64,000 nucleotides of DNA. Source: a bacterium HR11. Lineage in GTDB: Bacteria; Acidobacteriota; HRBIN11. Below the pieces are notes generated by a model that was not told where the DNA came from, searched no databases, and was given only the letters and a program-made list of their open reading frames with translations. Below, piece after piece: positions 471-45,706 of this stretch. The stretch is from contig BEHN01000015.1 in assembly GCA_002898535.1 (NCBI GenBank), positions 1 to 64,000 of the forward strand, read 5' to 3'. The first letter of the stretch is position 1, and each line of letters starts with the position of its first letter. The position numbers and the translations under genes were made by a program.

Positions 471-795
471 CAGAGCCGTTCGGTTCGTGAGAATGGCGTC
501 AGAACAATCTTTCCCATCCCCCGGAAAGCACGATGTTTCAAGCATTCGGCAGGTGGGCAGGTCGGCAGATGGGCAGGTGGGCAGATGGGCAGGTCGGCCG
601 GTCGGGCGACGGGCGTCTATCCCCGGCACACCGGCCGTCATGGCGGTGGCTTCCGGAGAGAGCCCGCCGTCCTGCGGGCGTCCTCCGCATGTACCGCCCG
701 TCATGGCCGGGTCATCCGGAGGAAGCTTGAAAAATCGAGATGGCCGGGCCACCTTCCCGGATGGGAACCGCATTTCTCCCAACCGAACCGCTCTG
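471..795. repeat. Foldback element copy A, CAGAGC-type inverted ends
   Basis: The left end reads CAGAGCCGTTCGGTT and the right end is its inverted counterpart ending in CTCTG. The arms continue inward for about 75 bases: the left arm has TTTCCCATC then TTTCAAGC, and the right arm shows GCTTGAAAAATC and GGATGGGAA in mirror order. The centre begins with tandem octads (GGCAGGTG, GGCAGATG, GGCAGGTC) and ends in a Gly/Arg-rich-looking segment shared with copy C in reverse orientation. There is no transposase or plausible ORF with codon bias. It begins directly after the DUF2283 stop. Target-site duplications are not clear. Confidence 0.85.
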
Positions 796-1364: not shown

Positions 1365-1623
1365 CAGAGCCGTTCGGTTCGTGAGAATGGCGTCAGGATA
1401 ACCTTTCCCATCCCCCGGGAAGCACGATTTTTCAAGCATCCGGCAGATGGGCAGGTCGGCAGATAGGCAGATAGAAGCCGGGTGGGCAAGGATCAGCCCC
1501 AGGGCTTTTGGGACCATCTGCCCATCTGCCGAACTGCCTATCTGCCAAAGCTTGAAAAACCGTCCTTCCCGAAGGGTCGAAAAAGCCGAATCCATGCGGG
1601 TTTTCACGAACCGAACGACTCTG
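1365..1623. repeat. Foldback element copy B, CAGAGC-type inverted ends
   Basis: This is a 259-bp element with CAGAGCCGTTCGGTT at the left and the inverted equivalent ending CTCTG at the right. Inside the ends, two octad arrays face each other (GGCAGATG/GGCAGGTC on the left, CATCTGCC/GAACTGCC on the right) around a ~40-bp loop, so almost the whole element can fold as one imperfect hairpin. It is nearly the reverse complement of copy D at 31780-32037, including the loop, which suggests recent copying. Confidence 0.88.
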
Positions 1624-5405: not shown

Positions 5406-5448
5406 CCTTCCCCCTGCCGACTGCCCATCTGCCGACCTGCCCATCCTT

Positions 5449-6913: not shown

Positions 6914-8106
6914 GCCTCAAGGACGAGGACGTCGTCCGCCGATGGCGGTGGGCGACCCGGGCCATCCATGTCGGACAGTCCCCGGACCCGACGACGGGTG
7001 CCGTGACGCCGCCTCTCTACCTGACGTCTACGTATCGTCAGGTCGGTCTGCACGTCCCCTCGCCCTACGAGTATTCTCGTGTCCAGAACCCCACCCGAGA
7101 GGCTTTGGAACAAAACCTGGCCGCTTTGGAAGACGGTCGGTGGGCCTGCGCCTTTGCCTCCGGGATGGCCGCCATCACGGCCCTGGCGATGACGCTCCGC
7201 CCCCGGGACCACGTCCTGGTCGCCTTGAACGTGTACGGCGGCACGTACCGGCTATTTCAATCGGTCCTCCGGGCCTGGGACCTGGACGTAGAGTTCTTCT
7301 ATCCCGTCACGCCGGAAGAGGCCAGGGCTCGGCTTCGACCCGGTCAGACTCGGTGGGTCTTCATCGAGACGCCCAGCAATCCCCTCCTGGAGATCGCCGA
7401 TATCAGCGCCTTCGCTCGGGTCGCCTCGGAGGCCGGCGCCCTCCTGGTCGTGGACAACACGTTTATGTCGCCTTATCTCCAGCAACCTCTCCGGCTGGGG
7501 GCCCACGTCGTCGTCCACAGCACGACCAAGTACATCAACGGCCACAGCGACAGCCTCGGGGGGGCCGTCGTCTTCGGGACGGACCCCATCCTGGAGCCTC
7601 TGTACGAGGGGGTGCGTTTCGTCCAGCGAAGTACGGGCGGCATCTTGAGCCCCTTTGAGGCCTGGCTCGTCCTACGGGGCATCAAGACCCTGCATGTCCG
7701 CATGGACCGACACTGCGCCAACGCCCGAGCCGTCGCCCAGTTCCTGCGAGAGCACCCGGCCGTCGAACGGGTATACTTCCCGGGCTTTCCGGACCATCCG
7801 GGCGCCGAGGTTCACGCCCGCCAGGCCCGCGGCCCCGGCGGGATGGTCACCTTCAGCGTCCGGCCGGGCCTGGACCTCGACCAGTTCTTCCGAAGTCTGC
7901 GGGTCTGCACCTTCGGCGAGAGCCTCGGGGGCGTCGAAACCCTCATCAGCCACCCGGAGACGATGAGCCACGCCGCCCTGCCGGAGGAAGTCCGCCGCCG
8001 TCTGGGCATCCATCCCCGCCTGGTCCGCCTGTCCGTCGGCCTCGAGGACCCGGCCGACCTCATCGAAGACCTGGCCCGGGCCCTGGACCGGGCGGGCGGC
8101 AGGTAG
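6910..8106 (+). CDS. Cystathionine gamma-synthase/lyase family PLP enzyme
   Basis: A 398-residue Cys/Met-metabolism PLP enzyme. TRAIHVGQSPDPTTGAV opens the fold, YSRVQNPTREALEQNLAALE and FASGMAAI are cofactor-site segments, and the Schiff-base lysine is Lys207 in VVHSTTKYINGHSDSLGG. It continues with GGVETLISHPETMSHA and ends VRLSVGLEDPADLIEDL. The family includes cystathionine gamma-synthase, cystathionine gamma-lyase and O-acetyl/succinylhomoserine sulfhydrylases, which sequence inspection alone cannot separate. Homoserine dehydrogenase nearby supports a methionine or transsulfuration role. ATG 6910 overlaps the CBS gene stop; longer in-frame starts lie inside that gene. The start of the protein (MSLKDEDVVRRWRWATRAIH) is a normal N-terminus. 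Confidence 0.9.
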   Translation: MSLKDEDVVRRWRWATRAIHVGQSPDPTTGAVTPPLYLTSTYRQVGLHVPSPYEYSRVQNPTREALEQNLAALEDGRWACAFASGMAAITALAMTLRPRDHVLVALNVYGGTYRLFQSVLRAWDLDVEFFYPVTPEEARARLRPGQTRWVFIETPSNPLLEIADISAFARVASEAGALLVVDNTFMSPYLQQPLRLGAHVVVHSTTKYINGHSDSLGGAVVFGTDPILEPLYEGVRFVQRSTGGILSPFEAWLVLRGIKTLHVRMDRHCANARAVAQFLREHPAVERVYFPGFPDHPGAEVHARQARGPGGMVTFSVRPGLDLDQFFRSLRVCTFGESLGGVETLISHPETMSHAALPEEVRRRLGIHPRLVRLSVGLEDPADLIEDLARALDRAGGR

Positions 8107-8182
8107 GCAATCGGCAGATAGGCAGATGGGCAGGTAGGGAGGTGGGGCCTCGTTCGCTGGTCGCCGTTCACCATTCGCCAAT
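8103..8182. repeat. GGCAGATG octads and CGCCATTC words
   Basis: Starting at the stop of the PLP enzyme, GGCAGATAGGCAGATGGGCA shows the 8-bp GGCAGATG family. It is followed at about 8155-8180 by CGTTCACCATTCGCC-type words of the CGCCATTC family. The array reaches to within ~10 bases of the cupin ribosome binding site. Confidence 0.7.
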
Positions 8183-16733: not shown

Positions 16734-16762
16734 CCCTACACTCCATCGAACTCACCTCAAAA

Positions 16763-16783
16763 CCTTCTCCCTGGGGGAGAAGG
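16763..16783. repeat. CCTTCTCC hairpin
   Basis: CCTTCTCC and GGAGAAGG are separated by five bases just upstream of the lipoprotein gene, followed by CCGGGTGAGGG. Similar CCTTCTCC...GGGTGAGGG hairpins are widespread repetitive motifs in many high-GC bacterial genomes. The role here is unknown. Confidence 0.6.
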
Positions 16784-17020
16784 CCGGGTGAGGGCCTTGA
16801 TCCAGAGCTCCTTTCTCTGAGATCAGGGACTCTTGAGACGAGTTCATTGTTAGCTTGTATACTTTGGGAATCCGAGCAATTCGTCGTGAAGTAGCCGAAT
16901 TACCGAACGGCCGAATTCCCGAATTGCCAACGTGTTCAGTATACAGGGAAGCCATCCAGGATCCAACGGCCTGGGGACAGAGGGCCGACTCGGCGTTCAG
17001 TGCCGAATGCGAAGTGTGAA
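16784..17020. other. Spacer with octad patch, no gene seen
   Basis: This part of the 760-bp gap between the lipoprotein and flavin reductase genes has relatively AT-rich sequence at 16845-16870 (including TATACT), which could hold a promoter, but I found no well-spaced -35 element. TTCGGGAA-family octads (CCGAATTACCGAACGGCCGA and on) occupy 16890-16928. No ORF is convincing. Confidence 0.45.
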
Positions 17021-17357
17021 CAGATCCGTTCGGTTGGGAGAAATGCGTTTCCCCTCCGGGAAAACGGTGGCCCGGCGACCTCGATGTTTCAAGCTTCCTC
17101 CGGATGACCCGGCCAGGACGGGCGGTGCATGAGGGTGACGCCCGCAGGACGGCGGGCTCTCTCCGGAAGCCACCGGCATGACGGCCGGTGGGCCGGGGAT
17201 AGACGCCCGTCGCCCGACCGGCCCATCGGCCGACCTGCCGACTGCCCATCTGCCTATTCTGCCGACCTGCCCATCGGCCGACTGCTTGAAACATCGCGCT
17301 TTCGCGGAGGTACCCTTTCCGCTCTCCATCTCACTTCTCACCTCCCGAACAGCTCTG
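17021..17357. repeat. Foldback element copy C, CAGAGC-type inverted ends
   Basis: The left end is CAGATCCGTTCGGTTGGGAG and the right end is the inverted form terminating AGCTCTG. The element is largely the reverse complement of copy A (471-795): the arm with GGTGGCCCGGC...TTTCAAGC, the CCGGATGACCCGGCCA segment and the octads follow in mirrored order. It also carries GATAGACGCC and CCGGCATGACGGCCGGTG, the words found in the trpE upstream repeat. It contains no gene. Confidence 0.85.
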
Positions 17358-31779: not shown

Positions 31780-32037
31780 CGAAGTCGTTCGGGTGGTGAA
31801 AACCCGCATGGATTCGGCTTTTTCGACCCTTCGGGAAGGACGGTTTTCAAGCTTTGGCAGATAGGCAGTTCGGCAGATGGGCAGATGGTCCCAAAAGCCC
31901 TGGGGCCGATCCTTGCCCACCCGGCTTCTATCTGCCTATCTGCCGACCTGCCCATCTGCCGGATACTTGAAAAATCGTGCTTCCCGGGCGTTGGGAAAGG
32001 CTGTCCCGACGCCATTCTCACCAACCGAACGGCTCTG
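31780..32037. repeat. Foldback element copy D, CAGAGC-type inverted ends
   Basis: Left end CGAAGTCGTTCGGGTGGTGA and right end ACCGAACGGCTCTG are inverted. The element is close to the exact reverse complement of copy B, including the loop that contains CCCAAAAGCCCTGGGGCCGA and CACCCGGCTTCTATCTGCC. It starts 4 bases after the pyrC stop and ends 45 bases before the M4 peptidase start. Confidence 0.88.
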
Positions 32038-39742: not shown

Positions 39743-39860
39743 CAGGACTGTTCAGTTCAGGAGAATCCGGATAGACCGACTTTCTCCATCGCCCGGGAAA
39801 GACGATTTTTCAGACACCCGTAGGGCAGACGTCCCGACCGCAGGACGGCGCCGGAAGGGG
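39743..39860. repeat. Single arm of a CAGAGC-type foldback element
   Basis: CAGGACTGTTCAGTTCAGGA and CCCGGGAAAGACGATTTTTCAG correspond in order to the left arm of elements A and B, but the opposite arm is missing. It continues into GACACCC...GGGTGTC (39818-39864), a hairpin downstream of rplQ on the minus strand, which may be its terminator. Confidence 0.6.
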
Positions 39861-44764: not shown

Positions 44765-44790
44765 CAGAGCCATCCGGCTCGTGAAAGTCC
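44765..44790. repeat. Single CAGAGC end fragment
   Basis: CAGAGCCATCCGGCTCGTGA resembles the terminal inverted repeat of the foldback elements, with no partner. It is in the adk-map spacer. Confidence 0.5.
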
Positions 44791-44819
44791 TGATATCCTG
44801 ATACCCAAGACCTGCCACC

Positions 44820-45485
44820 CTACCCCTGAGTCAGCCATTGCCGGACATATCCGGCCAGGCATTCAAAAATTTTGTCCTCCGGCTGGTCGGCGTCGAGTCG
44901 GACGAGCCGACCCCGGGTCTCATAGTACTGGACCAGGGGGGCTGTCTGCTCCCAGTAGACCTGAAAGCGTTTTTGGATGACCGCCTCCGTGTCGTCGGTC
45001 CGTTGGATCAAAGGCGTCCCGCACACCTCACAGCGCCCGTCGGGTGGAATCCGGTCCACGTTGTAAACTCGCTCGCATCGAGGGCATATTCGCCGTCCCG
45101 CCAAGCGCCGGACCGCCACGGCCTCCGGCAGGTCCAACAGTACACACCATAGCCGCTCGGTCTCCCCACGGCGGGCCAGGTAGCCCTCTAATTGTTCGGC
45201 CTGGGCGAGGTTCCGAGGATAGCCGTCTAAGACGACGCCCTCGTGGGTCCCGGCGGCCTGGTCCAGATAATGGGAGACGACCTCCAGGACCGTCGCATCG
45301 TCGACGAGTCGACCGGCCTCGAGGACCGGCCGGACCCGCGCCGCCAAGGGGTGCGCTTCCTGGGCGATCCGGCGGAGCAGGTCCCCCGTGGCGACCCGAA
45401 AGAGGCCAAAGGCCTCACAGAGACGATGGGCCTGGGTCCCCTTGCCGGCCCCCGGGGGGCCCAGCAGGACGAGATACAGCCGCAT
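44820..45485 (-). CDS. adk: Adenylate kinase, zinc-lid type
   Basis: A 221-residue nucleotide kinase (AMP + ATP to 2 ADP). The P-loop is LLGPPGAGKGTQAHRL, the AMP-binding segment is ATGDLLRRIA and GYPRNLAQAEQL, and the LID has the four-cysteine zinc site CPRCERVYNVDRIPPDGRCE with VCG. ATG 45485 has GGGGAG upstream. It sits between secY and map. Confidence 0.96.
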   Translation of the reverse strand: MRLYLVLLGPPGAGKGTQAHRLCEAFGLFRVATGDLLRRIAQEAHPLAARVRPVLEAGRLVDDATVLEVVSHYLDQAAGTHEGVVLDGYPRNLAQAEQLEGYLARRGETERLWCVLLDLPEAVAVRRLAGRRICPRCERVYNVDRIPPDGRCEVCGTPLIQRTDDTEAVIQKRFQVYWEQTAPLVQYYETRGRLVRLDADQPEDKIFECLAGYVRQWLTQG

Positions 45486-45496
45486 GGACGCTCCCC

Positions 45497-45706
45497 TTTC
45501 GGCCGTTCGGGAGTTCGGCAATTCGGGAATTCGGCAGGTGGGCAGATGGGCAGATAGGCAGATGGGCAGGTAGGTGAAGGTGGCTATCCGTTAGGGTGAC
45601 CCGTTTCCTGTCGCCGGCCTCCAGGCCGCATCCCCGCCCCGGCCGGCCCCCATGCCCGAGTCCCCGAACTCCCGAATTCCCGGATTCCCGAATTCCCGAA
45701 CGACCG
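45497..45706. repeat. Octad arrays in the secY-adk spacer
   Basis: TTCGGGAGTTCGGCAATTCG then GGCAGGTGGGCAGATGGGCA (two 8-bp families) form one side, and CCGAACTCCCGAATTCCCGG with further CCGAATTC words (45662-45700) the inverted other side, around ~80 bp of unique DNA. Confidence 0.85.

Follow-up and report, generated by a model that had tools for sequence, protein, structure and literature searches.

The target of the Correia and ERIC elements is the dinucleotide TA. Together with Chunjie, they belong to the high-copy bacterial MITEs, which are shorter than 500 bp, carry terminal inverted repeats, are flanked by target duplications, reside between genes and are mobilised in trans (PMC10969869). 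BrickBuilt of Porphyromonas gingivalis is a MITE-like element, present in 19 copies, in which a 23-nt tandem repeat is trapped between a leader and a tail, and a second element of the same species, 464/PgRS, has similar ends and a different tandem repeat (PMC4596501). As for insertion sequences, IS701 duplicates exactly 4 bp (PMC2266710) and IS5 duplicates YTAR (PMC10359306).

The closest known relatives in design of the family described here are MITEs, especially BrickBuilt. As in BrickBuilt, the elements are non-autonomous and intergenic, and unlike arms with short terminal inverted repeats surround a tandem repeat. However, BrickBuilt has 19 copies and direct repeats of 23 nt, whereas the present family has about 250 copies and repeats of 7-8 nt, which are often arranged in inverted halves. 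Unlike BrickBuilt, it also combines the same pair of arms with several unrelated kinds of repeat and has recombinant arms, and the BrickBuilt terminal inverted repeats printed in PMC4596501 differ from the ends found here, with no end sequence in common. With Correia, ERIC and Chunjie the family shares its short length, terminal inverted repeats, target duplications and intergenic location, but it has a 4-bp NTAN target, a GC-rich interior and no identified parent IS.

The window, i.e. the whole 64,000-nucleotide stretch of DNA that was analysed, belongs to contig 15 of bacterium HR11, an Acidobacteriota MAG of 2.99 Mb in 49 contigs that is 95% complete. A preliminary description had placed four complete copies in it, and all four are present, with ends that match CAGAGCCGTTCGGTT with 0-4 mismatches. 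The copy at 471-795 (325 bp, forward strand) is a complete hybrid element with a left arm of type A and a right arm of type C; it is flanked by the target duplication ATAA at 467-470 and 796-799. The TAA of the left target copy (468-470) is the stop codon of an upstream ORF of 95 codons (183-470, DUF2283-like according to the preliminary description), and the element directly abuts it, as had been reported. The copy at 1365-1623 (forward strand) is a complete A-B element of the canonical length of 259 bp with the flanks TTAA and ATAA and a 97% match to the A-B consensus. Two complete copies lie on the reverse strand: a D-C element of 337 bp at 17021-17357 (flanks TGAA and TTAA, 94% to the C-D consensus) and an A-B element of 258 bp at 31780-32037 (flanks AATA and CTAA, 97% to the A-B consensus), whose B end is degenerate, the left end of this copy having 4 mismatches to CAGAGCCGTTCGGTT. 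A relic at 39743-39820 (forward strand) consists of a decayed A arm only, of which 39780-39820 is 83% identical to the consensus, and a possible relic end, CAGAGCCATCCGGCTCGTGAAAGTCC after TTAG, is found at 44765-44800 (forward strand) with 3 mismatches and without a partner end.

The inner motif of the window copies is TTTTTCAAGC or GTTTCAAGC. The form TTTCCCATC, which had been attributed to the inner arms in general, occurs unchanged in just two copies, those at 471 and 1365; it is replaced by TTTCCCCTC in the copy at 17021 and by TTTCCCAACG in that at 31780. Similarly, the description of the centres as filled with octads is true of the 258-bp copies, but the centres at 471 and 17021 are longer and contain a second repeat of the GGCATGACGGCCGGTG type. 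The repeat GGCATGACGGCCGGTG...GGGGATAGACGCC is also found free in the spacer at 1690-1760 of the window and inside the centres of C-D elements. Between 471 and 1623, two elements lie on either side of one short ORF (about 830-1331), and single genes bracketed by pairs of elements about 1.3 kb apart occur elsewhere too. A separate intergenic repeat of ~100 bp at 16743-16850 is 84-90% identical to many places in a congener, G001, and to a few places in the host.

A search of the host and related genomes, which had been proposed earlier, revealed a very large family. With up to 2 mismatches, the CAGAGCCGTTCGGTT end has 508 matches in the host genome (261 forward and 247 reverse) as opposed to 3 (1+2) for the reversed-letter control, and hence there are about 250 elements, which at 290 bp each make up ~2.5% of the genome. 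Among the 119 relatives examined, G001 is the only one rich in element ends (65+53). A second congener, G002, has almost no ends by pattern search and a handful of decayed arms of 72-82% identity. The extended end was found in only one other GTDB genome, the Acidobacteriota sister MAG JZ-1.bins.94; in other Acidobacteriota there were single end matches, none with a convincing partner end, and neither an exact match to the element in viral contigs nor an Rfam match was found. The many ends in the host and G001 and the decayed arms in G002 suggest that the family is probably ancestral to the genus, and that it has probably been amplified in two species and is dying in the third.

Element statistics refer to sampled stretches of the host, in which 90 distinct complete elements were chosen via their ends, a few of them being counted with two alternative starts. 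These elements are gene-less and 223-516 bp long, apart from one outlier of 75 bp, with a mode of 258-260 bp, and no transposase content was seen in them. They carry the terminal inverted repeat CAGAGCCGTTCGGTT at both ends. Of the “very long arms” of the preliminary description, pairing is limited to the ~15-bp terminal repeat, the inner TTTTTCAAGC repeat and, in elements of the common form, the inverted octads; the rest of the arms differ. Hence, the arms are conserved sequences that are unlike each other and do not make up a simple long inverted repeat; the left one is of type A or D and the right one of type B or C. Both left types have GTGAGAA...GAAAGCACGAT-TTTCAAGCAT in common, and both right types lead into TTTTTCAAGCTT. 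The 90 elements comprise 54 A-B, 23 C-D, 6 A-C and 1 B-D pairings and 6 others, so that a left arm is paired with a right arm in 84 of 90, for which common descent accounts in part. In the hybrid copy at 471-795, the A/B consensus fits 471-576 and the C/D consensus fits 524-795; hence, the switch lies within the shared stretch around GCACGAT/TTTCAAGC. Exact target duplications flank four of the six A-C hybrids, which shows that the hybrids moved as units. The inner TTTTTCAAGC could have marked where an element nested inside the larger one ends, but this was ruled out, as 45 of its 48 instances are no more than 110 bp away from an outer end.

The mobility of the elements was evident from their flanks. 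An exact 4-bp duplication flanks 37 of the 90 host elements, whereas 1000 shuffles of the right flanks, which preserve base preferences though not every bias, gave 8.5 on average and never more than 20. Among the 14 complete elements sampled in G001, six have such a duplication versus 1.3 by shuffling. No excess was found for duplications of any other length. The target is NTAN, mostly TTAA, ATAA or CTAA; a 2-bp target consisting of TA only was ruled out because the outer two bases also agree between the ends. In the 59% of sampled host copies that lack an exact duplication, its absence is plausibly due to age, nesting or truncation.

In order to find empty sites, the two flanks of an element were joined and searched for in the available sequences of the host and its relatives, and this resulted in three base-precise cases, two of which come from comparisons between sister species and the third from a transposase relic of which an intact copy exists. 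The host element at L069:1509-1836 on contig C11 is absent from contig L054 of G001, where 200 bp align without a gap at 92% identity. Another element of C11 (L069:2549-2964), which interrupts the beginning of a relic IS4-type transposase, is absent from an uninterrupted relative, L110, where there is a single TTAA. Lastly, a G001 element (L118:1316-1654) corresponds to a single ATGA in the host (L096:18816-18623). Around the copies in the window, empty sites are only coarse and have no base-level junctions because the spacers are too diverged: in G002, the spacer at the place of 1365-1623 is 61 bp long versus 498 bp in the window, and that at the place of 17021-17357 is about 356 bp shorter than in the window. 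The target duplications and the precise empty sites in orthologous spacers, which the preliminary description had suggested looking for, support its reading of the elements as non-autonomous and MITE-like. Length, terminal inverted repeats, a duplication of fixed length and presence or absence at a site, i.e. all of the MITE features that we tested, are found in this family; an autonomous partner was not found among the seven transposase families searched.

A comparison of the centres was based on an alignment of 42 A-B elements from both species. Most host copies have GGCAGATG octads, and GTGACGGC octads, GATGCG and GGTGTT heptads and others are also present, so that the same arms enclose octads of the GGCAG or GTGACG kind or heptads of the GATGCG or GGTGTT kind. 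Elements of different centre classes are 76-89% identical in their arms, or ~85% in round terms, and 51-61% identical in their centres, which is close to random given a shuffled baseline of 50%; in the closest pair across classes, the arms are 94% and the centres 53% identical. Elements with foreign centres have exact target duplications too. As judged from these alignments, the arms have been conserved and the centre has been swapped repeatedly for unrelated short tandem repeats. Many centres are pairs of inverted arrays that fold strongly (z of -4 to -8), whereas for others z is near 0. The canonical 259-nt form has a foldback of about -152 kcal/mol and a centre z of about -6. Since several centres show no significant folding, the foldback is frequent but not required.

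The repeats also exist on their own. In our sample, 13 of 80 octad arrays lie away from any element, and G002 has dozens of octad-only matches despite having almost no elements; the arrays are therefore older than the elements or independent of them. Across the genus, spacers are filled by tandem octads of the GGCAGATG type and by heptads of the types GGATGCA, GGTCTRT, RGCGAAT, NGGTGTT and CATRGCT; such arrays are found in the window at 5406-5445, 8090-8148 and 45480-45574 and at many other loci, also outside elements and in G002.

Could the elements be functional cis elements, such as terminators or RNA-processing hairpins, that are selected at gene ends and are not primarily mobile? They are intergenic, they form a strong hairpin and some of them begin exactly at a stop codon. 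However, the flanking gene pairs (-+ 6, ++ 5, +- 4, -- 2) show no preference for gene ends, there is no Rfam match, and copies are absent from orthologous spacers in the sister species. Contact with stop codons is only mildly above the control: 31 of 113 ends with a stop triplet close an ORF of at least 90 codons versus about 21 expected from control sites. It arises mainly because TAA and TAG are themselves NTAN sites (NTAA/NTAG targets), and duplication of the target restores the stop codon. We therefore regard such a cis function as a very improbable explanation. Of the sampled copies, a single one is located in an ORF of at least 120 aa, although 72% of target-type sites fall within crude ORFs, so that insertions into genes have been removed or avoided, which is in line with mobile elements. 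It is extremely unlikely that these are REP/REPIN-like palindromes whose hairpin is the recognition site of a single-strand transposase of the Y1 type (TnpA-REP/RAYT), by which they would be spread. The family does resemble REP, BIME and REPIN sequences in being palindromic, intergenic and of high copy number, and the canonical form folds back strongly, but it has a clear 4-bp target duplication, which Y1 enzymes are not known to leave, several copies have centres with z near 0, and the host has no RAYT. The only match to Y1_Tnp (PF01797) in the genus is a partial one in G001 (L182, contig C103:2685-2879).

In a more specific version of the favoured explanation, the elements would be MITEs of a known IS family, IS701 or the IS5 group, and the assembly would lack its full-length member. 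The 4-bp duplication of IS701 fits, and the TA core of the IS5 target is shared, but the outer bases are often those of ATAA/TTAT, and the target is hence NTAN and not strict YTAR. The ends CAGAGCCGTTCGG disagree with the signature ---YACT-Y--YR that has been published for the ends of IS701. The search for a transposase covered the IS701, IS4/IS5, IS1182, IS1380, IS630 and Y1 families, and in the host none of PF13546, PF01609, PF13751, PF13586, PF13701, PF13358 and PF01797 gave a match above the cut-off. PF13546 (IS701 family, DDE_5) was found in none of three congeners, in which PF01609 (IS4/IS5 and relatives) and PF13586 had nothing over the cut-off either. As neither the IS701 ends nor the IS701 and IS5 transposases fit, we file the family under neither, and consider this version unlikely. 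The single IS4-type relic (L110:1037-2235, at about 154750-155950 of host contig C2) is a frame-shifted transposase with a YDRRMGLEEQLRDTKG signature, the IS4 YREK signature in pieces and 18-bp ends CTGACCGCTTATCACTTT; these ends are its own and different, which rules it out as the partner. Related remnants are found on contigs C11 (split by an element of the family) and C4. Pairs of ends 1.2-1.3 kb apart are not autonomous copies, as they enclose ordinary genes and no transposases. A transposase with the same ends, sought at the suggestion of the preliminary description, was thus not found; the mobiliser may be extinct, missing from the assembly or a member of a family beyond the seven searched.

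From the sequence evidence, it is very probable that this is a family of non-autonomous MITE-like transposable elements mobilised in trans, and its mobility is solid. A transposase of the cut-and-paste type, presumably with a DDE mechanism, would recognise and bind both end-arms and cut NTAN with a 4-bp stagger, which would result in the 4-bp duplication flanking each insertion. The arms (about 73 bp on the left and about 80 bp on the right) would hold what movement needs, and the centre would be a passive cargo of octads or heptads that is exchanged repeatedly, probably by recombination or slippage with like arrays in nearby spacers. As the centre is often an inverted pair, the whole element would fold back. 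A more doubtful idea is that the arms are a carrier that captures and inverts any short tandem array in spacers and then spreads it. If this were true, the element would be a source of the diverse arrays of octads and heptads with which the spacers of the genus are filled, and on every occasion a copying step that depends on the hairpin would restore the inverted symmetry.

In summary, this is a real and abundant MITE family, apparently an orphan, in which the tandem repeats of the centre can be swapped, and its roughly 250 copies occur in a group in which few such elements have been described. It goes beyond the BrickBuilt precedent in its scale, its 7-8-nt units, its many alternative repeats, their frequent inverted arrangement and its recombinant arms. 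Recombinant arms with intact target duplications show that a mixture of left and right ends can be used by the machinery. The unequal conserved arms and exchangeable centres amount to a natural experiment, both on what a MITE needs for its mobility and on the way in which tandem repeats spread through the genomes of bacteria.
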